From Chitinophaga pinensis (lineage in GTDB: Bacteria > Bacteroidota > Bacteroidia > Chitinophagales > Chitinophagaceae), in assembly GCA_945862385.1 (NCBI GenBank), contig CAMAXV010000001.1, forward strand, positions 62,001 through 126,000: DNA of 64,000 nucleotides. The letters are read 5' to 3'. The position numbers and the translations under genes were made by a program. Positions 8,704-25,918 of this stretch are shown here, piece after piece. The notes under the pieces were generated by a model. That model made no database searches, was not told where the DNA came from, and worked only from the letters and a program-made list of their open reading frames with translations. How positions within the stretch are numbered: the stretch's first letter is position 1; each line of letters starts with the position of its first letter.

Positions 8704-10497
8704 ATGCATACCCTTTCTGATATTCACCTGCAGTTTGCCAATGCCTTCCGGGATGCACGGATCAGACCTGCCGCCTACCTGCTGTCTAAAAAACTCGAGG
8801 AGGGTCATATCTGTGTTCCCGTGGATAGTGTGCTCACAGAAGACCTGCCCTTTGAAAAGCGCTGGCTACCTGAGCCTGCTGAACAACCCGATATGGTGGG
8901 TACACCAGGGGGTGAATCAAAACCTTTTATCCGCGATGGAAACCTGATCTACTTCCAGCGCTATCACCACTATGAATCTCAAATCATCAGCCACGTCGTT
9001 GCACGTGCCACCTCAAGCCTGCGGCTGTTGCCGGAGAGGATGGCAGCCCTCGAAAAACACCACACACTGGTCACCAACCTGGTGGCAACCTATCCGCTGG
9101 ATGGGTTGCTGCCGGAAGAGCAGTGCGACTGGCAACTGGTGGCATGCCTCCAGGCCCTGCTGAGTGATTTCAGCATCATTACAGGCGGACCAGGTACGGG
9201 TAAAACCACTACCCTTGCCAAACTGCTGCGCATCCTCTATGCCATCAACCCGGATACATCCGTTGCATTGGCTGCACCAACAGGCAAGGCATCCATGCGC
9301 ATGCACGAATCCCTCCAAAACTCAGCTGCGGCCTTCCCGGAAATGCAGCCGGTTTTCGACAAACTGAAACCTTCCACCCTCCATAGCCTCCTGGGCTACA
9401 GACCCAATTCCATCCATTTCAAATACAACCGCAAAAACACCCTGCCCTTTAGCTGGGTAGTAGTGGATGAGGCTTCCATGATAGACGTGCCGATGTTCGC
9501 CAAGCTGCTGGATGCTTTGCATCCGGAAACGCGGATTATCCTGCTGGGCGATAAAGACCAGCTTGCCTCCGTAGAGGCAGGCAGCCTGCTGGGCGACCTC
9601 TGCTCGGTTATCCCCAACCTGAATGGCATGGAACCGGCCAGGAGAGACTGGATCAACAGCTTCCTGCCAGATCCGCAAAGGCAAATCCCGGAAACAGGTA
9701 TTGCCGCAAACACACCCTGGTTGTCTAACCACATCCTGCAGCTTAAACTGAGTCACCGCTTCAAAAAAAGAGGCGCTATCGGGAACCTGGCAGGTATCAT
9801 CATCCGGGGCGAAACAGCCGCACTATCACCTATGCTGACTGATGCTGAGGCTGGCGAACTCCATTTCGACAACGTTTACAATCAGTCTGTGCTGGAAACA
9901 TTTTGCAAGGGTTATGCCGACTATATCCAGGAACCAGATATCAAAAAAGCCCTGGAAAAACTGAACAACCTCCGGGTGCTGGTGGCAGTCCGGGAAGGTG
10001 AAAACGGCCTCTATACCGTCAACAGGCAGATTGAGCGGTTCCTGCGCCAGGAACTGCTGCTCAAGCCTGACAGGGAGTTCTATCCCAACAGGCCGGTGAT
10101 GGTGACGCGGAATAACTACGAATTAAACCTTTTCAATGGCGATGTGGGCATCCTGCGGCCCGATGTACAAGGCAACCTGCGGGCCTGGTTCACAGACAGC
10201 AACGGGGAGCTAAGGAGCATACTTCCTGCCTACCTCAGCGATGCTGAAACAGTTTTCGCCATGACGATACACAAAAGCCAGGGTTCTGAATTCGATAAAG
10301 TCATGGTCATCCTGCCGGAAGGCACAGACAACCCGCTGCTTACGAGGGAGTTGCTTTACACTGCTGTAACGCGGGCAAAAAAATCTGTATCCATCCAGGC
10401 CACAGCAGAAACCCTGCTGCACACGGTCTCCCGCTCGGTGAAACGTATTTCGGGCATCACCCAACGCATTAACCAGATCAACCTGACCATTAGCTAA
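8704..10497 (+). CDS. recD: Exodeoxyribonuclease V alpha subunit RecD
   Basis: 597 aa, close to the 608 aa of E. coli RecD. It has an N-terminal RecB-interacting region, then a superfamily 1B helicase: Walker A GGPGTGKTTT (from 161), VVVDEASMID (DEAS 255-258), ILLGDKDQLASVEAGS, the late motif TIHKSQGSEFDKV (about 520) and LLYTAVTRAKK (about 550). RecD is the fast 5'-3' helicase of RecBCD, which unwinds DNA from double-strand ends. Gene order is recD-recC-recB, unlike enterobacterial recC-ptrA-recB-recD. The recC start follows 19 nt after the stop, which supports one operon. Confidence 0.95.
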   Translation: MHTLSDIHLQFANAFRDARIRPAAYLLSKKLEEGHICVPVDSVLTEDLPFEKRWLPEPAEQPDMVGTPGGESKPFIRDGNLIYFQRYHHYESQIISHVVARATSSLRLLPERMAALEKHHTLVTNLVATYPLDGLLPEEQCDWQLVACLQALLSDFSIITGGPGTGKTTTLAKLLRILYAINPDTSVALAAPTGKASMRMHESLQNSAAAFPEMQPVFDKLKPSTLHSLLGYRPNSIHFKYNRKNTLPFSWVVVDEASMIDVPMFAKLLDALHPETRIILLGDKDQLASVEAGSLLGDLCSVIPNLNGMEPARRDWINSFLPDPQRQIPETGIAANTPWLSNHILQLKLSHRFKKRGAIGNLAGIIIRGETAALSPMLTDAEAGELHFDNVYNQSVLETFCKGYADYIQEPDIKKALEKLNNLRVLVAVREGENGLYTVNRQIERFLRQELLLKPDREFYPNRPVMVTRNNYELNLFNGDVGILRPDVQGNLRAWFTDSNGELRSILPAYLSDAETVFAMTIHKSQGSEFDKVMVILPEGTDNPLLTRELLYTAVTRAKKSVSIQATAETLLHTVSRSVKRISGITQRINQINLTIS

Positions 10498-10516: not shown

Positions 10517-13500
10517 ATGGGCATATCCCTCAACATTTCAAACTCATTGAGTCCGCTCTCAGTCAAACTTGCATCAGACCTGAAAGCCATGTCTGTTGAT
10601 CCTTTCAGCGCGCAATGGGTAGTCACCCAAACGGAAGGTATGAACAGCTGGCTGAAGTCGACCCTGGCCAAAGAACTGGGCATCGCCTCCAATATCCGCT
10701 TCTGCAAACCCAACGACATCATTTCCAGGGTTCACCAGCTCTGCACGTATCCGTCCAGACCAGCTCTGGACAGCGAAACTTCGCGCTGGTATCTCTACGC
10801 ACTGCTGGGCAGCGAGAACTTCCGCGAAGCGCATCCAGACATCCATGCCTATTTCGGCAGCAACGACATCAAACGCATCGCACTGGCCGATGAACTGGCT
10901 GACCTTTTCGATCAGTACCAGGTTTACCGATACGAGCATATCAAAACATGGAACCAGCTCAACACCGAACTCATTGCAGGCGACTGGCAGGCATGGCTTT
11001 GGTGGCAGATGAAGGAAAAGCTGAACGGGGCACTGGGAGACAGGGTTGAGATGGCTGATGAGATACTGAAGGGCTTGCAGAACCCGGATGTGCAGGATCT
11101 GCTCAGGCGGAAAATCGGACAACTGCATTTTTTCGGCATTGCCGTAATCACACCATATTACCTGCGCATACTGCACGCACTCTCAGGCATTATAGACATT
11201 CATTTCTACCTCATCAATCCTGCACCGGAACAATACTGGTTAGACGACCGGTCTGAAAAACAGATTACAAGGCTGCTGCAGAAAAGAAACCTGCCACGGG
11301 AAGACAAAGAACATATCCTGCAGGGTAACGACCTGCTGCTGAACTGGGGAACCATCATCCGGGAAACATTCGGCTTGCTGCTGGATCAGGATGAATTCAT
11401 CAACCTCTACGACCCCTCCCTGGCCAATCCACACAGGTCTCCAAAAACCCTGCTGCATAAGATCCAGCACGACATTTACCACAATGCCATAGGTGAAGAG
11501 CGGCAACCACTGACTGCATCAGACATTAAGGACGGCTCCTTCTTCATCAATGGTTGCTACACACCCCTGCGGGAAGTAGAGGTGCTGTATAATCACCTGG
11601 TAAGCCTGGTAGATAAAAGCACTGAACCCTTCCCTGCCCGCGACATCCTCGTCATGGTAAGTGATATTGATCAGTATGCACCCTATATTCACGCTATTTT
11701 CAGCAATGCGCCCTACCGTTTTCCGTATACCATTGCAGATGAAACCATTACGGCAGACAACAACCTGTTCACTGCCATCAGGCAACTCCTGCTGGTTGAC
11801 CCCACCCGCTTCAAGGCGGAAGCCATCCTCGAACTGCTGGAATCCCCCTATATCCGCAAGCGGTTTCAGATTACAGACACCGATGCCATCCGTGATGCAG
11901 TGCGGGAGGCAGGCATCATCTTCAGCATATCAGGCCGGGAGAAAGATGGCACGCGTGTGATTAGCTGGGAACACGGACTGAAAAAAATCCTTTACGGAAT
12001 CTGTATGACCGGTGAAGCAGCCTATCAGGACGGGCTTGAAACCGTTGTGCCACTGGATACAGAAGAAGGCGCCGCTGCGCTGGAAAGGGTTAAGCTAATA
12101 CACTTCATCCAGATCCTCATCAGCAAAATCAGGGAATGGGAAACACCCAAAACCATTGCGGAATGGTCGGCCTACCTGAATGAGCTGGTGGAAGACATGG
12201 TTTTTCAGTCTGGCGAATCGGAAGATGAAGACTATCCACGGTTTGTGCAGCTCACCGAACAACTGGCTGAACTTAACCCTGCAGACACAGGTCTCATCAG
12301 CTTCGAGGTATTCCGCCACAGCTTCCTCCATCGCCTTTCCATGGAAAAGCGGTCGCAGTCGTTTGCCGGTGCCGGCATCACCTTCTGTTCCCTCATCCCC
12401 ATGCGCAGCATACCCTTCCATGTAGTGGCTATGCTGGGGATGGATTTTGATAAGTTCCCACGTAAAGAATCACCACTCAGCTTCAGTCTGCTGACCAAAC
12501 AGCGGCTGCCAGGAGACCGGAACGTGAAGGACAACGACAAACACCTGTTCCTCGAAACACTGCTCTCTGCAAAGGAACAGCTCTACATCAGCTTTACAGC
12601 CAAAAGTGCGAAAGACGCCTCAGATCTGCCTCCTTCTTCATTGGTGGATGAGTGCATAGACTATGTGGCGCGAAGCATGGAAGCAGATACCGATGTATTG
12701 CGGAAACAATGGATCACCATCCACCCCCTGCATGGATTCAGTAAGGAATATTTCAATGGTACCCTGGTCAACTACCTGAGTGAAAACCGTTTTGCCACGC
12801 AGATACCAGTTTCAACTGGTACTGCCGGAATACCAGATTTCCGGTTACAGAACCTGGACATCGAAGAAGTTGCCCGATTCATGGAGAACCCCATACGTTC
12901 CTATTACAACAATGTGCTAAAAGTCTATTACCGCGATGAAGAAACCCTCCTGCCGGATCACGAACCCTTTGAAATAAGCGGATGGCAAGCGCATCAACTG
13001 AAAATGTCTTTCATCACCGGAACCATTTCACCCGATGCACCCACTGGCATTGCTGCCGGCGTACTCCCGCTGCACAACATGGGAAAGGCATCATTGCAGG
13101 TGATGCAGCAAGAAACCGACCTGCTGCGGTCTGTCTTCCTGCAAACTGCAGGTAGTCTTGAAATGCATACACACAACATTCACCTGCAATTCAGCGAAAC
13201 ACTACTGACAGGCAAAGCCGGACCATGCTATGGAGATCAACTGATCTGTGTTTGTCCCTCCCGCAACCGAATCAAATACCTCCTACATGACTTTACACAT
13301 TACCTGGCCCTTCGGGCACAGGGCTTGTTACTTGACTTTGTCTTCATCGGTAAAAACATCAGCAAGAAAGATACCGCAGAGGCCTGTGTCATCAAGGCAG
13401 ATCGGATAACACAATCCGAAGCACTTGAAACCCTCGGAAAATATATAGCGCATTTCAAAAGCGGACATGAACAGTGTTTTCCTTTTTTCCCGGCATTTGG

Positions 13501-13729
13501 GAAGGAAGATCTGAAATTGGTTGACAAGGATTTTAATGAGATCATGGAATTCCTCGATGATGAAAAAGACAACAGCTTCAGTCACGATTTCACAGACACC
13601 TACCTTACCAAAGCCCTGGAGCATGGCTGGCTGAATAATGACACCTATAGCAGGTTGCAAATGAAGGTGTGTGAAATCCTGGAACCCATTCAGCAATTGT
13701 TACCCACCGTTTTCAACAAAAGCAAATAA
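10517..13729 (+). CDS. recC: Exodeoxyribonuclease V gamma subunit RecC
   Basis: 1070 aa (E. coli RecC 1122). The start resembles RecC (SVKLASDLKAMSVDPFSAQW, WVVTQTEGMNSWLKSTLAKE), with later typical stretches such as FFGIAVITPYYLRILHAL, ITFCSLIPMRSIPFHVVAML and GMDFDKFPR. RecC is a catalytically inactive relative of helicase-nucleases that holds RecB and RecD, splits the duplex and, in E. coli, reads Chi. No nuclease triad was recognised in the C-terminal region, as expected. Whether a Chi-like sequence is recognised cannot be judged here. The gene lies between recD and recB, with 3 nt before the recB ATG. Confidence 0.93.
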   Translation: MGISLNISNSLSPLSVKLASDLKAMSVDPFSAQWVVTQTEGMNSWLKSTLAKELGIASNIRFCKPNDIISRVHQLCTYPSRPALDSETSRWYLYALLGSENFREAHPDIHAYFGSNDIKRIALADELADLFDQYQVYRYEHIKTWNQLNTELIAGDWQAWLWWQMKEKLNGALGDRVEMADEILKGLQNPDVQDLLRRKIGQLHFFGIAVITPYYLRILHALSGIIDIHFYLINPAPEQYWLDDRSEKQITRLLQKRNLPREDKEHILQGNDLLLNWGTIIRETFGLLLDQDEFINLYDPSLANPHRSPKTLLHKIQHDIYHNAIGEERQPLTASDIKDGSFFINGCYTPLREVEVLYNHLVSLVDKSTEPFPARDILVMVSDIDQYAPYIHAIFSNAPYRFPYTIADETITADNNLFTAIRQLLLVDPTRFKAEAILELLESPYIRKRFQITDTDAIRDAVREAGIIFSISGREKDGTRVISWEHGLKKILYGICMTGEAAYQDGLETVVPLDTEEGAAALERVKLIHFIQILISKIREWETPKTIAEWSAYLNELVEDMVFQSGESEDEDYPRFVQLTEQLAELNPADTGLISFEVFRHSFLHRLSMEKRSQSFAGAGITFCSLIPMRSIPFHVVAMLGMDFDKFPRKESPLSFSLLTKQRLPGDRNVKDNDKHLFLETLLSAKEQLYISFTAKSAKDASDLPPSSLVDECIDYVARSMEADTDVLRKQWITIHPLHGFSKEYFNGTLVNYLSENRFATQIPVSTGTAGIPDFRLQNLDIEEVARFMENPIRSYYNNVLKVYYRDEETLLPDHEPFEISGWQAHQLKMSFITGTISPDAPTGIAAGVLPLHNMGKASLQVMQQETDLLRSVFLQTAGSLEMHTHNIHLQFSETLLTGKAGPCYGDQLICVCPSRNRIKYLLHDFTHYLALRAQGLLLDFVFIGKNISKKDTAEACVIKADRITQSEALETLGKYIAHFKSGHEQCFPFFPAFGKEDLKLVDKDFNEIMEFLDDEKDNSFSHDFTDTYLTKALEHGWLNNDTYSRLQMKVCEILEPIQQLLPTVFNKSK

Positions 13730-13732
13730 CCC

Positions 13733-16700
13733 ATGCAACACACCCCACAATCTTTTAATCCAGCTACCGTAAGCCTCGAAGGAAGTAACCTGATTGAAGC
13801 CAGCGCAGGCACCGGCAAGACCTATTCCATTGCCCTGCTTGTACTCAGACTGGTTATGGAAAAAAATATTCCCATCCAGCAGATCCTGATGGTGACCTTC
13901 ACCCGGGCTGCTGTTGCAGAACTGGAGCTGCGTGTGCGTGCTTTTGTGCGGCTCGCCGCCAAAGTAAGCCGGGGACAAGCCATAGAAGATGCAGCCATCA
14001 CCAAACTGGTTAATGCTGCCAGATCGGTGCATGGTGCAGATACCATCAGCCGCAGGCTGGCAGATGCACAACTCCTGCTGGATGAAACTTCTGTACTTAC
14101 TATACACGGATTTTGTCAGCGTACCCTTGGTGAATATGCTTTTGAAACCGGACAACTCTTTGGAGCAGAAACCCTGGGCGAAGAGGAATTTCTGCAACTG
14201 GTGCATGATAGCTTCCATGAATTCTGGCGACAGCATGTCACCATCCTGCACCCTGGGCTGCTGGAGCTGTTGTTGGAGAACGGTTTAGACCGGGAAGACA
14301 TGCTGAAGTTAATCAGGGAGGCACTGGGTGGAAAGCTGATGCGCCACCTAGGAGATATCCCTCGGAACTTCCTTACTGAACATTACCAGCAGGAGCTGCT
14401 GGATTCATTCCAACAGGCTGGCATTGATCCCGCACAAACCCTTTCAGATATCATCCACCACATCACCACCATGGCGATAGACTGGGTTGTTGCAGAAATC
14501 AGACAGGTCAAACAGGCAAGAGGCTTTATAACCTACGACGATATGATCCGCCTGCTGCATGAAGCTGTACTGACTGGAAGCCACCGGAATCAGCTGTCGA
14601 GGCACCTGCAGGAAAAATATAAAGCAGTTTTCATCGATGAGTTTCAGGATACCGACCGGATGCAGTTCGAAATTTTTCAGGCACTATTTGAAACAAATCA
14701 TATCCTCTTCTACATCGGAGACCCCAAGCAGTCTATTTACGGCTGGCGTAAGGCCGATATCTTCACCTATTTCAAAGCCAAATCCAAGGTGAACAAGATT
14801 CATGTCATGAACACCAATCACAGGTCTGGCAAAGACTACATCGAAGCGATGAACAGCTTCTTCCTGCCAGAGCCGGAGTTCGACACCTTTGCATTCCAAC
14901 AGCACAGCGATGCCATTAAATACATCCCGGTGCAGTCTCCCGACGAAAACAAAAAAGGCACACTTTGCTATAAAGGTGAACCCGTTACGCCTATCCTGAT
15001 TTCAGAACATGCCAAAAAGAAAGAGCTGCAGAAAGCAGTACCTGCGCTGGTTACCCAGCTCCTTTTTTCCGGGCACTATACCATTGAAATTCCTGGTAAA
15101 CCAGTAAGGGCAGTCATCCCCGGAGATATCGGTATTCTTGTGCGCAAGAACAGGGAAGGCAAACAGATCAAGGAACTGCTTGCGCAATATGGTATTGCTT
15201 CCATCACGATTGATGATGCCAAGCTGCTGCAGACAAGTGAAGCCCTGGATATGTTGTATGTCATGGAAGCCGTAAAAGACATCAGCAGAAAATCCATCAA
15301 CAAAGCCCTCCTGACATCACTGGGGGGATATACACCTGAAACACTACTTACTGCCAACGAGGAAGCCATCCTCCTGCGCTTCCGCACCTACCAGGAAACC
15401 TGGAAAAGCAGGGGTGTTTTTGAAATGTTGCGCCAGTTTTTATCAGACCATGCACTGCCTTTACTGATGGAACAGGCAGGCGGCCAAACAGAACGAAGGG
15501 TCTCCAACATCCTGCAACTAGTGGAGATCATCCACAAGGTGAGTGAAAGGAAGCATTATGATGAACAGGAACAGATCCAGTGGCTCAAAAGAAGCATAGA
15601 CGGCGAACTACGTGAAGGCGACGAATACGAACAACGCATTGAAAGCGATGAAGATGCAGTGAAAATTGTGACCATCCACAAGAGCAAGGGACTGGAATAC
15701 AACATCGTACTGGCACCTGCACTGGATATGCTCGCGAAAGAATCCCATATCAAAACCCTCAGCTACCGCCATCCGGAGACCGGAAAATACATTGTTATCC
15801 ATAAAAAACGTGCCAGTGAGGAAGAAACAGGCTGGGGTGAAGCACAACAAGAGCAAGAAAACAGGAGGTTACTTTACGTGGCTATAACCCGTGCCCGCTA
15901 TCAGTGTCTGATTACGGCCAACATGGCTTCGAAGTATTCAAAATCCTGTTTGCGGGTTTTCACAAAATCCATCAAATCAAACAAGAAGGGAATTCCGGGA
16001 GTGGCTTTCCACACACCCGATGCGGTTGTAAGGAAACCAGCTGCCCGGATGGAGGTTAGGCTGGAGCGGACTTATGCACGCGCAGATCACTTCAGCCTTT
16101 CACAGTTGAAGTGGCGCCGAACAAGTTACAGTGCACTCAACCCGGAACATACTGTATTTTCAACCGTATCAGACCCTCAGGCTGTGATGGATGGCTATAA
16201 CCGTTTCATTTTCAGACAATTGAAAAAAGGAGCACACACAGGCAACCTCCTGCATTATGTATTTGAACACATCAATTTTACTGAACCGGGTAACTGGGAG
16301 GAAGTTGTTGAAAGAGCACTGAAGCGTCTTTCAGGAAAAACAGACACTGATTATGCCCAGGGAATTTTACTGATGCTGGAACGCATCATCTCCCGGCCCC
16401 TCCTGCCAAACGGCACCCTCAGCCTAAGTGAAGTAAGCTGGCAGAACAGACTCAACGAACTGGAGTTTGATATGCCACTGACACTTTTCAACACAGATAT
16501 GCTTCAGCTATTATCGCCGCCTGAAACCCCTTTTTACCTGCGGTCTGGGGAGGAAATGGAAGGTATCCTGAACGGGAAAATGGATCTTTTTTTCATGCAT
16601 GCAGGGAAGTATTACATCCTCGACTGGAAGTCCAATCACCTTGGAGACAATCCCGAACAATACCGTCCGGAACAGCTTTCGGCAGCCATGACAGCCAACA

Positions 16701-16903
16701 ATTACCACCTGCAGTATCACCTGTATACACTCGCTGCATGCAGGTATCTGCAGCTGCGCGTTCCCGGTTTCGATTATAGTCGTGATTTTGGCGGTGTGAT
16801 TTACCTCTTCATCAGGGGTATACAAGAAGAAGGAAACAACGGTATATTTGTACACAAACCGGAGCAATCTGTCATCGATGGCTTCCGACAGATTCTTGCA
16901 TGA
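13733..16903 (+). CDS. recB: Exodeoxyribonuclease V beta subunit RecB
   Basis: 1056 aa (E. coli RecB 1180). Helicase motifs: Walker A ASAGTGKT (23-30), DEFQD (302-306), YIGDPKQSIYGWRKADI, MNTNHRSGKDY, VTIHKSKGLEYNIVLAP and RRLLYVAITRARYQ. The C-terminal nuclease keeps the RecB residues: GKMDLFF (Asp near 950), DWKSN (964-968) and a QYHLY motif behind it. Together with RecC and RecD it should resect double-strand ends and load RecA. The stop overlaps the next start as ATGA at 16900-16903, so translation of the transferase-like gene is probably coupled to recB. Confidence 0.95.
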   Translation: MQHTPQSFNPATVSLEGSNLIEASAGTGKTYSIALLVLRLVMEKNIPIQQILMVTFTRAAVAELELRVRAFVRLAAKVSRGQAIEDAAITKLVNAARSVHGADTISRRLADAQLLLDETSVLTIHGFCQRTLGEYAFETGQLFGAETLGEEEFLQLVHDSFHEFWRQHVTILHPGLLELLLENGLDREDMLKLIREALGGKLMRHLGDIPRNFLTEHYQQELLDSFQQAGIDPAQTLSDIIHHITTMAIDWVVAEIRQVKQARGFITYDDMIRLLHEAVLTGSHRNQLSRHLQEKYKAVFIDEFQDTDRMQFEIFQALFETNHILFYIGDPKQSIYGWRKADIFTYFKAKSKVNKIHVMNTNHRSGKDYIEAMNSFFLPEPEFDTFAFQQHSDAIKYIPVQSPDENKKGTLCYKGEPVTPILISEHAKKKELQKAVPALVTQLLFSGHYTIEIPGKPVRAVIPGDIGILVRKNREGKQIKELLAQYGIASITIDDAKLLQTSEALDMLYVMEAVKDISRKSINKALLTSLGGYTPETLLTANEEAILLRFRTYQETWKSRGVFEMLRQFLSDHALPLLMEQAGGQTERRVSNILQLVEIIHKVSERKHYDEQEQIQWLKRSIDGELREGDEYEQRIESDEDAVKIVTIHKSKGLEYNIVLAPALDMLAKESHIKTLSYRHPETGKYIVIHKKRASEEETGWGEAQQEQENRRLLYVAITRARYQCLITANMASKYSKSCLRVFTKSIKSNKKGIPGVAFHTPDAVVRKPAARMEVRLERTYARADHFSLSQLKWRRTSYSALNPEHTVFSTVSDPQAVMDGYNRFIFRQLKKGAHTGNLLHYVFEHINFTEPGNWEEVVERALKRLSGKTDTDYAQGILLMLERIISRPLLPNGTLSLSEVSWQNRLNELEFDMPLTLFNTDMLQLLSPPETPFYLRSGEEMEGILNGKMDLFFMHAGKYYILDWKSNHLGDNPEQYRPEQLSAAMTANNYHLQYHLYTLAACRYLQLRVPGFDYSRDFGGVIYLFIRGIQEEGNNGIFVHKPEQSVIDGFRQILA

Positions 16904-17646
16904 AGATATACAACTACACTGAACAGCCGGATGAATTGAATCCGGAAGACTTCGACGACTACCTCGCCAGGGGTTGGTACCGCATGTACCAGAACCTCTT
17001 TACTGTTACACACTGGCTTAACGGCGATACTTTTGAAATGGATCGGGTTTGGTGGTTGCGTTATGATGCCAGAAATATTTATGTACACCATTCGCATAAA
17101 AAAATCCTGAGGCGGGCCGGTAGATTTGGAATCAGCATTGAAGCGTATGATGAAATTCCTGAAGAGGATGTTGAGCTATATGCAAAATACCGGTCGTGGA
17201 TCAGTTTTGACGGGTACGACAGCCTGTCTAAATGTCTTTACGACGACGAAGAAAACCTAGGATTATTCGATACCTGGGCAATATCAGTAAGAGACGGCGA
17301 CCAGTTAATTGCAAAAGGACTCATAGACCTGGGTTCAAATGCTGTGATGGCCAAAGTAAGCTTCTACGACCCTGAATACATCAGGTTTAGTCCGGGTAAA
17401 CTCCTCATGCTACTCGAAGTGGAATTTATGCGCGAACAGGGATTCCGCTGGTACTACCCGGGTTATGTAATTGTAGGCAGACCAAAATTCGACTATAAAC
17501 TTTTTCTGGGTAGGGAGATAGCTGAGTACTTTGATCCGGAGGTTGAATGCTGGAAACCCTTTTGTGAAAAGATCATGGAGCCTGAAATGAGAACAGAAGA
17601 TGAAGATGCTGAGCTGATCCACCATTTCATCCGGCACTGGATGTAG
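16900..17646 (+). CDS. Ate1/Bpt-like aminoacyl-tRNA-protein transferase homologue
   Basis: 248 aa, size of bacterial Bpt/arginyl-tRNA-protein transferases. The C-terminal half matches the Ate C domain (GNAT-like): KVSFYDPEYIRFSPGKLLML, LEVEFMREQGFRWYYPGYVI and VGRPKFDYKLFLG correspond to the YDP, SLG..L.EI, YYYLGYYI and P.M.YK pattern. Upstream WWLRYDARNI, HKKILRRAGRF, YAKYRSW and YDSLSKCLYD fit the family's middle part. The N-terminal domain keeps the YLARGWYRMYQNLF segment but lacks the cysteines that normally follow. Known relatives attach Leu or Arg to protein N-termini and mark them for degradation; activity here is inferred only. It overlaps recB by four bases and lies 27 nt before sbcD. 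Confidence 0.72.
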   Translation: MKIYNYTEQPDELNPEDFDDYLARGWYRMYQNLFTVTHWLNGDTFEMDRVWWLRYDARNIYVHHSHKKILRRAGRFGISIEAYDEIPEEDVELYAKYRSWISFDGYDSLSKCLYDDEENLGLFDTWAISVRDGDQLIAKGLIDLGSNAVMAKVSFYDPEYIRFSPGKLLMLLEVEFMREQGFRWYYPGYVIVGRPKFDYKLFLGREIAEYFDPEVECWKPFCEKIMEPEMRTEDEDAELIHHFIRHWM

Positions 17647-17673: not shown

Positions 17674-18879
17674 ATGAGAATTTTTATTTCAGCCGACTGG
17701 CACCTGGGAAAGCGTTTGCACCAGGAAGACCTCAGTGAGGACATGGAACTGTTCTTTACATTCCTGATTGAAAAAATCAGGGAAGAAGAAACCGATTACC
17801 TGCTCATAGCCGGAGATATTTTTGATCAGCATAACCCGGCACATGAGGCAAGCCGACAGTATTACCGGTTTTTGTCGAAACTGAATGCCACCGGTTGCAA
17901 GGCCATTATCATTGCCGGAAACCATGATTCACCCTCTTTTCTGGATACCCCTTCAAGCCTGCTCAGCAATTTCGGAGTAACCGTTGTATCACAGTATCCC
18001 GGAATGGATAAAATCAACGATGTGTTTATTCCCATTGAAGACAAAAGCGGCAGAAATAAAGCGATTGTGGCAGCTATTCCCTTTTTGCAGGATAGGTTTA
18101 TCAGGCAGGTAGGAGAAGGGGATAGTTCAAAAACAATCGACGAAAAAATTCAGGAAGGCATGCGGAATATTTTCCTGCATGCTGGTGAAGCCCTCCGCAG
18201 AGAACACCCGGGTTTAACACATATCGGCATGGCACATTTGCATGCACAGGGGATGCAGGTAAATGAAGCAGAAAGAGACATTCAGATTGGCAACATATTG
18301 GGCATCACTGCTGATGCACTAAACCAGTTTGATTACCTCGGGCTTGGACATATCCATACCGGACAGGCTGTACTGGAAGGACGTATTCATTATGCCAGTT
18401 CACCCGTCTCACTGGGTTTTTCTGAAAACAATTATGCCCATAAAATCATCAGGCTGGATCTGGAAGACGGACAAATCAAACAAAGCTTTATTCCCATACC
18501 CAAAACACGTTCGCTCTACCAGGTTAAAGGTAGTCTGGCGGAGGTGGAACAAAAAATCAACAGCCTCCGGTGCAAGTATCAACTGCCTGTGCTGCTGGAT
18601 ATTGCCATTGAAGAACCCACTTACAAACCTACCGTAATGGAAGCTATTACAACATGGAGAGAAACGCTCCCCACCCGGAATTTCAGGCTTATCCAGCAGC
18701 GTGTTACCTACCAAGATCGCTTAAACAGTTCACGCACATCCGCATTGCAGGCAGAACGCGTTCATGACCTTCAGCCGGAGGCAGTATTCAGTGCACTCAT
18801 AAAAGAGCGGGAAGATAACGCAGAGAAGACAGCCATCATGGAACTGTTTCAGTCCCTTTTATCAGACCTAACCCGCTAA
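17674..18879 (+). CDS. sbcD: Exonuclease subunit SbcD (Mre11-like)
   Basis: 401 aa, the usual SbcD length. The calcineurin-like metallophosphoesterase motifs are complete: DWH (8-10), GDIFD (47-51), GNHDS (82-86), HLHAQG, and GHIH (about 225-228), which bind the two Mn ions. SbcD is the nuclease of the SbcCD complex, which cuts hairpins and removes protein-blocked DNA ends. Two bases separate its stop from the sbcC ATG. The position behind recDCB and the transferase-like gene suggests co-transcription. Confidence 0.95.
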   Translation: MRIFISADWHLGKRLHQEDLSEDMELFFTFLIEKIREEETDYLLIAGDIFDQHNPAHEASRQYYRFLSKLNATGCKAIIIAGNHDSPSFLDTPSSLLSNFGVTVVSQYPGMDKINDVFIPIEDKSGRNKAIVAAIPFLQDRFIRQVGEGDSSKTIDEKIQEGMRNIFLHAGEALRREHPGLTHIGMAHLHAQGMQVNEAERDIQIGNILGITADALNQFDYLGLGHIHTGQAVLEGRIHYASSPVSLGFSENNYAHKIIRLDLEDGQIKQSFIPIPKTRSLYQVKGSLAEVEQKINSLRCKYQLPVLLDIAIEEPTYKPTVMEAITTWRETLPTRNFRLIQQRVTYQDRLNSSRTSALQAERVHDLQPEAVFSALIKEREDNAEKTAIMELFQSLLSDLTR

Positions 18880-18881
18880 CT

Positions 18882-21800
18882 ATGAAAATACACCAGCTCC
18901 GCTTCAGGAATATCAACTCCCTCAAAGGGGATTTTCTCATTGATTTCGACAGACCCGAATTTACAGGAGCCGGACTTTTCGCCATTACCGGTCCAACCGG
19001 TGCTGGCAAAACAACCCTCCTCGATGCCATCACCCTGGCATTGTATTCTTATACAGCAAGGATGGAGAACGTCAGCGAGTCTTCAGTAGAAGATGACAGG
19101 GCCATTATGACACGCGGAACAAAAGACTCCCTTTCTGAAATCACATTCAGTGTAAATGGCATTACCTACCAGTCTCACTGGTCTGTTCGCCTTACCCGCA
19201 ATGGCACTCCGGATAAAATCAAACTTAAAATCAGCCGAAAGGAAGGTGATGAATTCAAACCACTAACAGATAAGGTGTCAGAATCCAAGTCTGCCATTGT
19301 TAAAATAATCGGACTCACCAAAGAACAGTTTACCCAGGGCATTGTACTCAGTCAGGGTAAATTTGATGAATTTCTCCGTGCAAAAAATCATGAGCGCTAC
19401 GAACTGCTGGAAATTATCACAGGTACAAGCCTCTTTCGTGAAATTGGTATAGCCGCTAACCAGCGGTTCAAAGACATCCAGCAGCAAATCAAGCAGCATG
19501 CTGCTATTCTGGAAAACGTCAGACTCCTCTCGGCTGAAGAAATTTCACAACTACAAACAGAACTCAATCAACTGGATGAAGCAAAAACTGATCTGCTGGG
19601 TACACAAACGGTTTTAAATAAGCTTAAAGACACTAAACAGCGTATTGAGGAACTGAACAGCACTTTAGTCGATATTGATACCCAATTGGCTCATCAGGCC
19701 AAAAAAAGGGCTGAAACGATGCCACAGGCACATTTATTGAACAGGCATAACCTGGCACTTCCTCACCATGGCCAATGGCAGGCATGGATTTGGGTGCAGG
19801 AAGAAGTTAAGCGCCTGGATAGCCAGATCAACAGGATAATCAGTGCGGATCTGGAACAACAAAAGGTGTTATCAGGATGCTGTGAAGATCTTTCACGTGC
19901 TACAGGCATGCAAGTACAGGAATCTGATTTTACAAGCCAGCTGGAACACTTTTTCAACCTGATAAACAGTCTGGATATGGCCTGTGAATCACTCAAAAAC
20001 AAGTTCGACAGCCTTCGGAACCCCATGGTAGCTGCAGTTCAGGCGTTACCTGCCAGCCTCCGGACTGCATTGAAAGAAAAGCTTTCAGATTCAAATTGGT
20101 TGCGCAGTTATAAGCAGGAACAGGAAACCTTGTTGAATGACAGTCAACTTCCAACTTATATTTCCGGCATGGATTTGTCTGAAGCTGCGGCAAAAAGTCG
20201 AATCAGGATAAATGGATTGCAACAATGTGGCAGTCAGTCTGCCCGGATGGATGCCATCCAGGCTACATCCAATAAAATTCAGGCGGAGCGGTCGGTATTG
20301 CAGCTGACCTGTGAGCAGATTAGTCAGGATAAATCAGTGACTTTAATTGAACTGTCAGAAGGTGAAAAGGCTGCTGATGTTTTACATCAGGCTGTTGAAG
20401 CCAACAAAGCAGTAATGGCTTTGGAGATCCAGCGCAGCAAATTGAAAGATGGAGAACCATGTCCCTGTTGTGGCTCCACAAACCATCCCTATGCCAGCAT
20501 GCTGCCCACTTTAAATGATGAACTTGAAGCATCTTTTACACAACAGCTAGAAATAGTTAACCAGCTGAAAGTCAAACTTAACACCCAGGAAAAAGGGATA
20601 TTGGTGGCAGAAACCAGTCTGGCTGGATTAAACCAACAACTACAGCAGCTGGAGACTGAGCGCATCCCCCTCCAAAAAAATTTGGAGACGGGTTTACAAG
20701 CTGCTCAAATACCCGGTGCCACCACAACAGACATACTTAAAGCCATCAGTCAGGAGGAGTTGTTAGAAAAAACGATAACCCTGCATCAGCAGTGGCAGCA
20801 GTCCGTCATTCACCTTGACAGCCTCATAGGGGGGCTTGAAAACATGCAGCAGGCAAAGCAAGAATTAGATAACAGCATTCTTGAAAGAAAACAAGCCTTT
20901 GCCGGTGAAAATATTCAGCAGTTCTGCAATAACCTAATCACCAGGTGGCAGACTGCTACCGCAACCCTGACTGCCAATGCCATTGAAAAAGAAAAGCTTG
21001 GAAGTGAGATTTCGGATCAAAAAAGCAGTTGTGAAAGCCTGCAACAGCAACTAATGGAAACCTTGCAAAACGCAGGATTTGCCGATATCGAAGATTTCAG
21101 TTCTGCCCTGCTCAATCCGAATACAGCTGAGGAAATCCGCCTGAAGTTAGACCAGCTTAAAGAAGCAGAGAACACTTTGAAGGGGAAAAAAGCACAGGCT
21201 GCTGAACAGCTGGAGGCTGCGACAAAAGAAGATGACCCACACCAAACTATGGAAGATCTGTTGCTTTCACTCAGCAATAATTCAATAGCATTGCAGCTAA
21301 ACCTGGTCAGCCAGGGCGAAATCAGGGAGAAAATTCGAACAGACAGCGAAAACCGCTCTAAACAAGAGGAACTTTTTGAAGCACTTGAAAAGCTGAAATC
21401 AATTGAAAAAATTCACAACATCCTCAACGAGTATATCGGAGATGCCACTGGTAATAAATTCAACAACATTGTGCAGCGCATAACCATGCGGCATTTGTTT
21501 GAACTGGCCAATGAAAAGCTGCAGGTGTTGATGGACCGTTACCGGCTTGAACTAGGTACAGGGAAAAATGAAGATGACATCTGGGTGATAGACAACCACA
21601 TGGGCAATGAATGGCGGACCATCGACAGTGTTTCAGGTGGCGAGCGTTTTGTTATTTCCCTGGCACTGGCATTGGCACTGAGTGATATGGCTTCCCGGAA
21701 TGTTCGTATTGATTCATTATTTATTGATGAGGGATTTGGCAGCCTGTCTCCAGACGACCTCTACAATGCCATCAATATGCTGGAGAAAATGCAGGTGGAA

Positions 21801-21956
21801 AGCAATAAACTGGTGGGTATCATCAGCCACGTGGAAAGCCTCAAGGAACGTATAGCCACACAAATTGTGGTAAGTAAACTGCAAAATGGCGAGAGTACCC
21901 TGCACCTGAAAGACGGACAAAAACTGGAGCATTTAAAAATAACAGGAGTAGTATAA
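18882..21956 (+). CDS. sbcC: Exonuclease subunit SbcC (Rad50-like ATPase)
   Basis: 1024 aa. N-terminal Walker A GPTGAGKT (37-44) and Q-loop region (GIVLSQGKFDEFLRAK), long coiled coils, a central zinc hook CPCC (527-530), then the C-terminal ABC signature SGGERF (from 918) and Walker B LFIDEGFGSL (about 945-954). It is the SMC-like ATPase that tethers DNA and controls SbcD. All elements needed for function are present. It is the last gene of the recombination block; the next start is 54 nt downstream and belongs to an unrelated envelope protein. Confidence 0.95.
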   Translation: MKIHQLRFRNINSLKGDFLIDFDRPEFTGAGLFAITGPTGAGKTTLLDAITLALYSYTARMENVSESSVEDDRAIMTRGTKDSLSEITFSVNGITYQSHWSVRLTRNGTPDKIKLKISRKEGDEFKPLTDKVSESKSAIVKIIGLTKEQFTQGIVLSQGKFDEFLRAKNHERYELLEIITGTSLFREIGIAANQRFKDIQQQIKQHAAILENVRLLSAEEISQLQTELNQLDEAKTDLLGTQTVLNKLKDTKQRIEELNSTLVDIDTQLAHQAKKRAETMPQAHLLNRHNLALPHHGQWQAWIWVQEEVKRLDSQINRIISADLEQQKVLSGCCEDLSRATGMQVQESDFTSQLEHFFNLINSLDMACESLKNKFDSLRNPMVAAVQALPASLRTALKEKLSDSNWLRSYKQEQETLLNDSQLPTYISGMDLSEAAAKSRIRINGLQQCGSQSARMDAIQATSNKIQAERSVLQLTCEQISQDKSVTLIELSEGEKAADVLHQAVEANKAVMALEIQRSKLKDGEPCPCCGSTNHPYASMLPTLNDELEASFTQQLEIVNQLKVKLNTQEKGILVAETSLAGLNQQLQQLETERIPLQKNLETGLQAAQIPGATTTDILKAISQEELLEKTITLHQQWQQSVIHLDSLIGGLENMQQAKQELDNSILERKQAFAGENIQQFCNNLITRWQTATATLTANAIEKEKLGSEISDQKSSCESLQQQLMETLQNAGFADIEDFSSALLNPNTAEEIRLKLDQLKEAENTLKGKKAQAAEQLEAATKEDDPHQTMEDLLLSLSNNSIALQLNLVSQGEIREKIRTDSENRSKQEELFEALEKLKSIEKIHNILNEYIGDATGNKFNNIVQRITMRHLFELANEKLQVLMDRYRLELGTGKNEDDIWVIDNHMGNEWRTIDSVSGGERFVISLALALALSDMASRNVRIDSLFIDEGFGSLSPDDLYNAINMLEKMQVESNKLVGIISHVESLKERIATQIVVSKLQNGESTLHLKDGQKLEHLKITGVV

Positions 21957-23025: not shown

Positions 23026-23915
23026 AAAATATCCTTTTCTTCCTCACCATCGTCTGCTACCATTTATTTTCTGTTGCACAGGCTCAGGATGAAAACTTAA
23101 ATGACTCCAGCATCAACAGGAATGTTTTTAAGCAATCTTTTGGGAGGCTTTCCCTGAATTATTCCAGCGACTGGATTTATGCAGGCAGAAAAGATCCAAT
23201 TACTCTGCCTTACCTGACTGTCGCTGCCGCTTACTTTCACCAATCAGGCTTATTCGTAAGGGGTTCTGCCTCACTTTTGTTAAAAGGGACAGACAAGCGG
23301 GTTGATCAACTTAAACTCACTGGCGGATATGCCTATTACAAGAACAACTTGTTTTGGGGCGTTTATGGAAGTTTATTTTCGTTCAACGATAGCAGTTATG
23401 CGGTTTTGTCTGAAATTAATGCCAGTGCCTATGGTTATTTTGGGTATGATTTCCGGTTATTTGAACTCATGGCAGATGCCGGAACAATGTTTGGAGCAGC
23501 CACAGATTTCACAGCCGGCCTTGATCTCTCCAAAACAATATATGCATCGGGCGGCAGGTTGAAAATGATGCCTTCTGTTTACCTGCTTGGCGGAAGTCAG
23601 CAGTACTACAACTCGTATTACCAGATCAGAAATACGGAAACCAAAAAGCGCATTGGCCGTGGAAACGGAGGTAGTGCGGGAACTGTAGTAACTTCAGACA
23701 CCACTGTAGTTGTTGAAAACAGCTCAAAGTTCAGGCTGCTTTCTTACGAGTTCAGCTTACCTGTTCAGTACACAACCAGTCGCCTACGTTTCGGAATTAC
23801 CCCTGCATTTGTTATCCCCGTCAACCCTTCCATCATAACCATTGATCAGGTAACCACCAAAGAGGATCTTGAAAACAGCTTTTATTTCAATATCAACTTA
23901 GCCTACCGACTTTGA
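23022..23915 (+). CDS. Predicted outer-membrane beta-barrel protein
   Basis: 297 aa. Signal peptide MKNILFFLTIVCYHLFSVAQAQ, then alternating aromatic/hydrophobic strands (YLTVAAAYFHQSGLFVRGSA, LKLTGGYAYYKNNLFWGVYG, SAYGYFGYDFRLFELMADAG) and a C-terminal strand ending in LAYRL, as in Bacteroidota outer-membrane barrels. No named family was recognised. Translationally coupled to the DUF6799-like gene (4-nt overlap), suggesting a joint envelope role. Its end overlaps by 13 nt the end of the convergent DUF3445 gene. Confidence 0.65.
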   Translation: MKNILFFLTIVCYHLFSVAQAQDENLNDSSINRNVFKQSFGRLSLNYSSDWIYAGRKDPITLPYLTVAAAYFHQSGLFVRGSASLLLKGTDKRVDQLKLTGGYAYYKNNLFWGVYGSLFSFNDSSYAVLSEINASAYGYFGYDFRLFELMADAGTMFGAATDFTAGLDLSKTIYASGGRLKMMPSVYLLGGSQQYYNSYYQIRNTETKKRIGRGNGGSAGTVVTSDTTVVVENSSKFRLLSYEFSLPVQYTTSRLRFGITPAFVIPVNPSIITIDQVTTKEDLENSFYFNINLAYRL

Positions 23916-24634
23916 TGACTTAAAAGACTGCGGATAAACTGAAGATTTTTATAGTCGGCAACTGCATCAGACATCGAAGCCAGACTTTCAAGTATAACAG
24001 TTTTTTTGAATGGCTCCTGAAAGACTTCAGCCAATGGATACATATTGACTTTCACAAAAAACAGACAGACACCATCGGACAATCCGATGGTTGTCTGCGT
24101 TTCCGTCCTGAACCACAAATCACTTATCCCATCCGGAACCGGTCTAACCAGATCCGGATGCTGACTCAATCCCTGCAACGATGTGATGGTCCAGACATAA
24201 CGCCTGAAACATGCCCCCTCTCGGGAAATCAAGGCCGTTACCTTTTCACTTGCGCCACGCAACCGCTCACCATCACCCACTGGCAAGTGCATATCAAAGA
24301 AATTTAAACCCAGTTTCTCTGATGGTTTGAAGCCACTCGGAAAGCAAAAACAGATTGCTTTCAAAACGCCGTGTTGCAGTATTGCCAGATCTTCTTCAAA
24401 CTGAAGTGCAAGCTCACGGATATCTTCTGTTGGTGTTTTGCCGGCAAAATCAGCCATTCTTTTTACGAGAGACCCTGCCTGTTCATCTGCTGATACAATA
24501 TCATGACTGAATCTGCTGAGCTGAGCCTGCTTCTGGTGCAGGTAATACAAATCCGGCGCAGTATTGAAAGCCTCTCCCTCATACTTTGAAATATCCGCAC
24601 TAACGGTATAAGGCACTTTTACCGGAAATACCAT
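23903..24634 (-). CDS. DUF3445 family, heme-dependent oxidative N-demethylase-like
   Basis: 243 aa from the ATG at 24632-24634 (MVFPVKVPYTVSADISKY). An ATG at 24676 is possible but would leave only about 70 nt for the divergent promoters. The middle and C-terminal patterns fit DUF3445/HODM: QFEEDLAILQHGVLKAICF, CFPSGFKPSEKLGLNFFDM, MHLPVGDGERLRG, FRRYVWTI and FRTETQTTIGLSDGVCLFFV. The founding enzyme of this family is a heme, PAS-fold oxygenase that removes N-methyl groups from dimethylamine. It stands back to back with nitric oxide synthase, another heme monooxygenase, so a shared regulator or linked nitrogen chemistry is possible; that is inference. Confidence 0.75.
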   Translation of the reverse strand: MVFPVKVPYTVSADISKYEGEAFNTAPDLYYLHQKQAQLSRFSHDIVSADEQAGSLVKRMADFAGKTPTEDIRELALQFEEDLAILQHGVLKAICFCFPSGFKPSEKLGLNFFDMHLPVGDGERLRGASEKVTALISREGACFRRYVWTITSLQGLSQHPDLVRPVPDGISDLWFRTETQTTIGLSDGVCLFFVKVNMYPLAEVFQEPFKKTVILESLASMSDAVADYKNLQFIRSLLSHQSR

Positions 24635-24733
24635 GATTTTATTCGGTTTATGCCCCAAATTAAGCCAAAATACCATCCATCAGGGTAAAATAGTACTTCG
24701 TTCAACATTTAATTCAGATTCAGTACAAATACT

Positions 24734-24745
24734 TACCTTTGTAGC
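24734..24745 (+). promoter_or_regulatory. -7 box of the nitric oxide synthase gene, predicted leaderless
   Basis: TACCTTTG (24734-24741) matches TAnnTTTG exactly and is followed by four bases and the ATG at 24746. No clear TTG was seen at -33, so the upstream half is weak. Confidence 0.5.
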
Positions 24746-25918
24746 ATGTTTAACGTTGATGCATCTGAGGTGAAACAAAATTTGCTGCTTGAAAAAGCAC
24801 ATAGTTTCCTGAAGACCGCCTATAGGGAACTGGAAAAAACCGAACTGCTGCCGGATCGGCTTTCTGCAGTTGAACAGGAAATCAGCCTGAGCGGCACCTG
24901 GAGTCCCACAACAGAAGAACTCACACATGGTGCACGCATGGCCTGGCGCAACAGCAACAGATGTATTGGCAGGTTGTATTGGAAAACCCTGAAGGTAATT
25001 GATGCAAGACAGCTGGAAGAACCCGAAGAGATATTCAATGCCCTGCAACAACACATAGATTTTGCATTTAACGACGGACAAATCCGATCCGCGATAACCA
25101 TATTCCGGGCGAAAAGTCGCACTGAACCTGACGGTCCGCGTATACTCAACCACCAGCTCATCCGTTTCGCCGGTCATCAGCAAGGAGATGGATCCGTTAT
25201 CGGAGACCCCGCTTCTGTAGAATTTACGCAGTGGTGCAAATCAAAGGGCATAACTTTTGAAGGCAGTCCGTTTGACCTGCTTCCACAAGCCATTCAATGG
25301 CCCGGATCATCACCTGAAATCAGACAACTGCAGCTCCCGGAAAAAATGCTGGTAAACATCGAACATCCAGATTACCTCTGGTTTTCATCGATGCAGATTA
25401 AATGGTATGGATTGCCATTGATTTCGGATATGATGCTTGAAATAGGGGGAATCGAATTCACTGCAGCCCCTTTTAACGGCTGGTACATGGGTACCGAAAT
25501 CGGCAGCAGGAACCTGGGGGATACAAGTAGGTATAACCTTTTACCGACAATAGCAGAAAAGCTCGGACTTGATACTACTTATCATAGAAGTTTCTGGAAA
25601 GACAGGACCATGCTTGAACTGAACCGCGCTGTTTTGTTTTCATTCGACAAAGCAGGCGTTACCATCTCCAATCACCACGATGCTGCAGAACAGTTTGTAC
25701 ATTTTGAAGAAACGGAAAATAAAAAAGGGAGAGAGATTCGTGCCGACTGGACCTGGATCACACCACCCATGAGTGGTTCGGCCACTCCCGTCTTTCACCG
25801 CAATTATACCAATGAAGTAATCACCCCTAATTTCTTCTATCAAGACGACCTGCTGCATGCATCAAAAATGCCGGCAGCAAAGGGGTGTCCGTTTCACCGC
25901 AACAGTATTGTGAGTTAA
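24746..25918 (+). CDS. nos: Bacterial nitric oxide synthase, oxygenase domain
   Basis: 390 aa, oxygenase domain only, slightly longer than the ~363 aa Bacillus enzymes. Diagnostic parts: WRNSNRCIGR with the heme-thiolate Cys73, MQIKWYGLPLISDMMLEIGG, NGWYMGTEIGSRNLGD with the substrate-binding Glu251, ISNHHDAAEQFVHFEE, and ADWTWITPPMSGSATPVFHR (pterin/heme region). It should oxidise L-arginine to citrulline and NO with electrons from cellular reductases, since no reductase is fused or adjacent. An extra C-terminal tail carries KGCPFHR with Cys381, a Cys-Pro pair of the kind called heme regulatory motif in other proteins. It is divergent from the DUF3445 gene. Confidence 0.95.
   Translation: MFNVDASEVKQNLLLEKAHSFLKTAYRELEKTELLPDRLSAVEQEISLSGTWSPTTEELTHGARMAWRNSNRCIGRLYWKTLKVIDARQLEEPEEIFNALQQHIDFAFNDGQIRSAITIFRAKSRTEPDGPRILNHQLIRFAGHQQGDGSVIGDPASVEFTQWCKSKGITFEGSPFDLLPQAIQWPGSSPEIRQLQLPEKMLVNIEHPDYLWFSSMQIKWYGLPLISDMMLEIGGIEFTAAPFNGWYMGTEIGSRNLGDTSRYNLLPTIAEKLGLDTTYHRSFWKDRTMLELNRAVLFSFDKAGVTISNHHDAAEQFVHFEETENKKGREIRADWTWITPPMSGSATPVFHRNYTNEVITPNFFYQDDLLHASKMPAAKGCPFHRNSIVS

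Follow-up and report, generated by a model that had tools for sequence, protein, structure and literature searches.

A divergent, probably metal-free Ate/Bpt-like transferase encoded between recB and sbcD in a Chitinophaga genome

The closest described systems are eukaryotic ATE1 and the bacterial Bpt/Ate transferases. In PMC10115844, four ATE1 cysteines (C20, C23, C94 and C95) form a zinc site that matters for stability; Y22 of the yeast enzyme contacts the tRNA end, and helix alpha-f enters the acceptor-stem groove of the tRNA. The identical cysteines are assigned instead to an Fe-S cluster in PMC9884297. The importance of the site for RNA binding and activity, as well as for stability, is described in PMC10115844 and PMC9884297. 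Among the PMC papers listed under CC0, CC BY or CC BY-SA licences, which does not prove absence elsewhere, none was found on a cysteine-free Ate from Bacteroidota or on an Ate beside recBCD.

The transferase gene and its place in a row of repair genes

The gene lies in the window, the whole stretch of 64,000 nt that was analysed, and all gene coordinates given for it are positions within this stretch. It is part of a tight row in the order recD-recC-recB-ATE-sbcD-sbcC, with gaps of 19, 3, -4, 27 and 2 nt:

8704..10497, plus strand: recD-like helicase (AAA_19, AAA_30 and UvrD_C_2 above cut-off)
10517..13729, plus strand: recC (TIGR01450, 596.9 bits, cut-off 582.9)
13733..16903, plus strand: recB (TIGR00609, 703.6 bits, cut-off 696.05)
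16900..16903, plus strand: ATGA in which the recB stop and the transferase start overlap
16900..17646, plus strand: ATE_C transferase gene (ORF with ATG start, 248 aa)
17674..18879, plus strand: sbcD (TIGR00619, 152.8 bits, cut-off 77.65)
18882..21956, plus strand: sbcC-like ATPase (TIGR00618, 305.7 bits, below the cut-off of 478.5)

A preliminary description of this DNA had reported an ORF upstream of sbcD with an ATGA overlap to recB, and this arrangement is present as claimed: since recB ends at 16903, the two genes have the ATGA in common, and sbcD lies 27 nt downstream. Judged by this spacing, the transferase gene is likely to be co-transcribed with the recB row. RecD_N scores 20 bits on the recD-like helicase, slightly below its cut-off of 22. 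Despite the sub-cut-off TIGR00618 score, 18882..21956 is a clear sbcC homologue. Elsewhere in the window, 1620-4478 encodes a UvrD helicase of 952 aa with a C-terminal PDDEXK nuclease.

Kinship with Ate/Bpt transferases and the missing cysteines

An Ate/Bpt pattern had been proposed for the C-terminal half of the protein, and it was borne out. Pfam ATE_C (PF04377) matches residues 89-200 significantly, with 71.3 bits against a cut-off of 25 (E 1.4e-19), and all three motifs on which the proposal drew were located. Profile searches with both Ate N and Ate C models had been suggested at the same time; the C-terminal model thus matched, and ATE_N gave no match to the window protein up to E 1 in the Pfam search. 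The best NCBIfam arginyltransferase model, NF002346, reaches E 3.5e-21 at 75.8 bits, below its cut-off of 170, and six further arginyltransferase models of that collection likewise score below cut-off. PF13480 (GNAT) matches the protein too (E 3.6e-5), which makes a different acyl donor conceivable. The window's genome holds no second ATE_C match at E 1 or better. The features within the gene are:

17089..17115, plus strand: short basic helix of the model (codons 64-72), roughly at the start of alpha-f
17365..17403, plus strand: motif YDPEYIRFSPGKL (residues 156-168)
17449..17472, plus strand: motif WYYPGYVI (residues 184-191; P187, G188 and Y189 in 54/54 rows)
17482..17505, plus strand: motif PKFDYKLF (residues 195-202; Y199, K200 and L201 in 54/54 rows)

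The rows counted here are those of alignment A3, in which the window protein is joined by 53 rows drawn from the best 80 of the 185 encoding stretches returned by the named scan; two of its rows are halves of one fused protein. ATE_C matches all 54 rows, and at E <=0.01 PF13480 (GNAT) matches 42 and ATE_N 2 of them. A PDB search with the single sequence returned ATE1 chains at E ~2e-6 to 8e-6, and the A3 profile returned Ate1 chains down to E 3e-14 with nothing else significant. Aligned with hhalign to an S. meliloti protein annotated as an arginyltransferase, A3 gave E 1.2e-13 over 205 columns that cover the N-terminal half; on this alignment, that half is homologous to the S. meliloti protein despite the lack of an ATE_N match. 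In a second alignment, A4, which includes Proteobacterial proteins, G25, R54, L93, D143, P158 and L171 are common to all 11 rows, as are Y186, G188, Y189, Y199 and K200.

A structure model had also been proposed for comparison with known transferases, and its closest match is ATE1. The AlphaFold2 model was built with A3 (pLDDT 95.4, pTM 0.92). ATE1 chains head its Foldseek results (E down to 6.5e-13), with lower scores for LFTR. By VIA-align, human ATE1 gives Z 19.3 with 218 residues aligned (rmsd 3.3), and the Ate1 enzymes of K. lactis and yeast give ~18 and ~15. The next folds are MprF, FemX and the Sba18 family (Z 12-14), and the acetyltransferases Eis and VipF reach Z 10-12. On the predicted structure, ATE1 is clearly the best fold for the window protein.

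The absence of the family's N-terminal cysteines, noted in the preliminary description, was confirmed on several counts. No CxxC or CC occurs within the first 70 residues in any of the 54 A3 rows, the window protein included. In A4, two Proteobacterial proteins, one of which is annotated as an arginyltransferase, carry a PC-YL segment and CxxCxxC at this position, neither of which the window branch has. The model begins near residue 30 of human ATE1 and, in the yeast enzymes, near residues 53-54, which leaves the C20xxC23 segment (residues 1-52 of yeast ATE1) without a counterpart. Because this segment, with C20, C23 and Y22, is gone, tRNA use by the window protein is not assured. C94-C95 fall opposite non-cysteines in the HMM alignment of A3 to the yeast enzyme, an alignment whose N-terminal part is not significant. 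In the putative stem helix, lysine or arginine occupies residue 67 in 38, residue 68 in 46 and residue 71 in 46 of the 54 rows, with the equivalence to alpha-f resting on a weak alignment. Read through the role given to alpha-f in PMC10115844, the basic helix at 64-72 may be a weak hint of retained tRNA binding. The window protein represents a divergent, probably metal-free Ate/Bpt-like branch. As ATE_N and the cysteines were both looked for and not found, it is not filed under Ate/Bpt proper.

Distribution and gene neighbourhoods of the branch

Of the 60 nearest genomes, the window's own counted, 28 carry a homologue, and so do 17 of the 296 genomes sampled from the whole phylum. Most of the best 80 of the 185 stretches are labelled Bacteroidota; the groups among these 80 are Chitinophagaceae, Cyclobacteriaceae, Hymenobacter, Saprospiraceae and others, and three are labelled only 'uncultured bacterium'. 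The first genome-contig scan, with the window protein as single query, found no relative. The branch is found mainly in Bacteroidota and is scattered through the phylum. In a tree drawn at the midpoint and not rooted, the window protein pairs with its closest homologue, L123 (100/99), and next joins L124 (99/80), and a branch with 100/99 separates two Proteobacterial sequences from the rest. L144 and L157, from MAGs labelled Borreliella and Spirochaetales, pair together inside the Bacteroidota tree and represent either transfer or mislabelled bins.

Several homologues have an unusual architecture. Two transferase copies are fused in one 502-aa frame at L048 (3502-5010), copies stand in tandem at L059 (127-1961), and the homologue ORFs of L060, L061, L063 and L065-L067 measure 343-447 aa, of which ~100 aa form an additional C-terminal region. 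Part of a plasmid protein from Bernardetia (L203, 2944-4014), annotated as DUF952 domain-containing, is Ate-like. A mobile origin was considered and rejected: the transferase query (P0001) had this Bernardetia record as its one plasmid match and matched nothing among phage records.

The homologue loci came in sets of 33, 16 and 80 (the best 80 of 185). Twenty of the 80 are centred as earlier loci and repeat them, which leaves 109 distinct loci; L068 and L122 gave no transferase match by tblastn at the limits used. No recD, recC, recB, sbcD or sbcC gene was found in these 109 other loci within the sequence examined, and since many contigs are short the absence of a neighbour holds only for that sequence. 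The neighbours vary and include a Gfo/Idh oxidoreductase, a beta-CASP nuclease, a GluQRS-like synthetase and MnmG. L123 lies ~15 nt downstream of the beta-CASP nuclease gene. The sole 'recB' match in the other loci, at L124 in a Ferruginibacter MAG (E 2.7e-5), was rejected: it is a UvrD-family helicase, with 43 bits for TIGR00609 against a cut-off of 696, and is related to the UvrD-PDDEXK protein of the window. In 98 genomes around L124, compared with flanks of <=1.5 kb, 25 places were matched, and the helicase gene stands only in L124's own place (L219). The neighbours of L123 and L124 are read as shifting.

Viewed from the repair genes, the picture is similar. Among the 60 nearest genomes, 8 have recB at E 1e-80 or better, and the transferase gene adjoins recB only in the window's genome. 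In G018, the contig with recB breaks off within that gene; the homologue is found close to the beginning of a different contig, which has no recB match. At L208, recB is followed directly by SbcD above cut-off (177.1 bits against 77.65) without a transferase gene. After recB, L207 and L210 carry SbcD-like phosphoesterases below cut-off (43.2 and 41.4 bits). L208, and more weakly L207 and L210, thus show that the recBCD-SbcD pairing exists without the transferase. By eye, an SMC-like ATPase ORF follows the SbcD-like gene of L207, and other genes follow recB at L209, L211, L213 and L214, the last being a further genome of the family; L212 stops inside recB. For nine close sbcD genes from the genus (58-64% identity), flanks of <=1.5 kb contained no recB and no transferase gene. 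The gene-neighbourhood survey for recB and sbcD that the preliminary description had called for thus finds the adjacency in the window's genome only.

Co-occurrence was counted with TIGR00609 at E 1e-60 or better across the phylum, where 145 of the 296 genomes have RecB (99 of them above the family cut-off). Most homologues there are in genomes that lack RecB: RecB occurs in 1 of 17 homologue-bearing genomes, which is the window's own, against 144 of the 279 others (Fisher p 2e-4). The nearest 60 genomes point the contrary way, with the homologue in all 8 that carry recB (Fisher p 0.001; for the genus, p 0.036, or 0.07 when the window's own genome is left out), and in the 37-genome genus sbcD is present in 13 of 25 homologue-bearing genomes against 0 of 12 others (p 0.002), figures which are confounded by shared descent and small genomes, so that neither is an independent count. 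Mean genome size in the genus is 2.1 Mb without the homologue and 3.2 Mb with it. The co-occurrence with recB and sbcD among the nearest genomes leans toward a repair link, but without adjacency.

Other genes recur near the homologues. The transferase gene and an N-demethylase-like gene are close, convergent and mostly adjacent at L037, L038, L040-L043, L045 and L055. At 23903-25918, the window itself has a haem-dependent oxidative N-demethylase-like gene (PF11927, minus strand) arranged divergently with a gene for a bacterial nitric oxide synthase oxygenase (PF02898, E 3.3e-148, plus strand); sbcD, sbcC and three further ORFs separate the N-demethylase-like gene from the transferase gene (16900). 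A nitric-oxide link was rejected: the synthase gene is 7 kb from the transferase gene, and its protein as query matched none of the 109 other homologue loci. Relatives of the UvrD-PDDEXK protein lie near the transferase gene at L124 (34 nt upstream) and L048/L140 (~3 kb). A short synthetase-like gene stands directly downstream of the transferase gene at L044, L047, L049 and L050, and the product at L145 (= L049) scores 162.9 bits with the GluQRS model TIGR03838, below the cut-off of 276.7. At L109 and many Hymenobacter loci, the homologue is upstream of mnmG, a tRNA-modification gene; the MnmG protein family appears in 21 loci of the best 80 of 185, and one member reaches 838.9 bits with TIGR00136.

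Likely activity and comparison with known systems

Going by its sequence relatives, tRNA-dependent aminoacyl transfer is the best reading of the window protein's activity. A divergent Ate/Bpt-type, GNAT-fold transferase that depends on aminoacyl-tRNA is probable if the Bpt-like version and versions with another acceptor are taken together. In such an enzyme, the GNAT domain would hold a charged tRNA by its acceptor stem, and the amino acid would pass from the tRNA to an amino group. If bacterial Bpt is taken as the model, a protein N-terminus may be the acceptor and Leu the donor amino acid, and the tagged protein would then be read by ClpS and delivered to ClpS/ClpAP. This N-terminal tagging is a tentative reading that falls short of an even chance. 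It draws on the full-length homology, the ATE1 fold of the model and the precedent of Bpt from V. vulnificus, as described in PMC3692480 and PMC4052509. Also in its favour, the window's genome encodes ClpS (70.4 bits), found in a search that the preliminary description had suggested, and Aat as a separate protein (215.2 bits). The lack of ATE_N and of the cysteines argues against the tagging reading, as do the 5 of 28 homologue-bearing genomes with no ClpS match, although 9 of 32 others are also without one. Among the 60 nearest genomes, ClpS occurs in 23 of the 28 with a homologue and in 23 of the 32 without one, which neither supports nor refutes a ClpS link. FemX, MprF and the Sba18/Sbb17 peptide synthases fold as ATE1 does and have acceptors other than N-termini. 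Aminoacyl-tRNA-dependent transfer to a small molecule, peptide, lipid or side chain is rather unlikely, yet it would fit the loss of the metal site, which alters the substrate-side domain, the rank of FemX, MprF and Sba18 as next folds, and the patchy spread (17 of 296 phylum genomes) with tandem or fused copies; ATE1 is nevertheless the better fold (Z 19.3 against ~13) and the sole significant sequence match in the PDB. That the protein is a GNAT acetyltransferase with acetyl-CoA as donor is improbable: the PF13480 match of the window protein and of 42 of 54 rows speaks for it, but the ATE_C match is far better, and Eis and VipF reach Z 10-12 against 19 for ATE1.

The preliminary description had further proposed a link between N-terminal tagging and break repair, to be judged by conserved linkage with recBCD/sbcCD in related genomes; the 109 other loci showed no recB or sbcD neighbour in the sequence examined, an outcome that the description had named as refuting the proposal. 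The ATGA overlap with recB, the position inside the recDCB-sbcDC row and the homologue's presence in each of the 8 nearby genomes (of 60) that carry recB favour such a link, as does the UvrD-family helicase gene 34 nt upstream in the sister L124, a member of the supported trio (99/80). Against it, no other homologue was found adjoining recB or sbcD, the other seven recB-bearing genomes have the homologue and recB on different contigs, none of the 24 other matched places repeats the L124 arrangement, only 1 of the 17 phylum genomes with a homologue has RecB, and recB and sbcD are neighbours elsewhere without the transferase gene. That the transferase tags or controls RecBCD or SbcCD is very improbable, and the fuller proposal, a recB-coupled, metal-free Ate branch with a new substrate that would tag a RecBCD or SbcCD subunit and so set the amount of the repair enzyme, is equally improbable. 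A repair role for the transferase is not indicated; the link rests on one genome, and the position beside the repair genes is probably accidental. The tRNA-dependent transferase would have landed in the recB-sbcD operon as a lineage-specific arrangement. The repair link is not worth pursuing on the neighbourhood alone. As a natural cysteine-free branch, these proteins would show whether the core alone tags in a tRNA-dependent manner, and which substrate.

Among known systems, the L/F-transferase Aat, FemX and MprF have a GNAT-type core in common with the window protein, but they give no significant sequence match to it in the PDB, and their structural scores are lower than those of ATE1. The GWRHFG relatives (L117-L122 and the Bernardetia plasmid protein) are 20-25% identical to it. 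Those placed in the tree (L117, L119, L122 and L203) also lack CxxCxxC and fall on the window's side of the supported branch from the two Proteobacterial sequences, and L117, L119, L120 and L122 give weak ATE_N matches (E 1e-5 to 5e-5), slightly below cut-off. Bacterial Bpt/Ate proteins (PRK01305; S. meliloti UIJ96167.1; an Aeromonas caviae ORF) show full-length homology and are of similar size, but they have the PC-YL segment and CxxCxxC, which the window protein lacks, and its NCBIfam scores are far below cut-off. Eukaryotic ATE1 is larger (~500 aa against 248 aa), is 19-23% identical in structural alignments, and has the N-terminal residues (1-52 in yeast, with C20, Y22 and C23) and the CC at C94/C95 that the window protein is without. 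ATE1 (PDB 8tzv, 7wg1, 8e3s) nevertheless has the ATE_C domain too, its fold takes in almost all of the window protein (Z 15-19), and both proteins have the LIA, DP-Y, SLGK-like, YY-GY and YK motifs.
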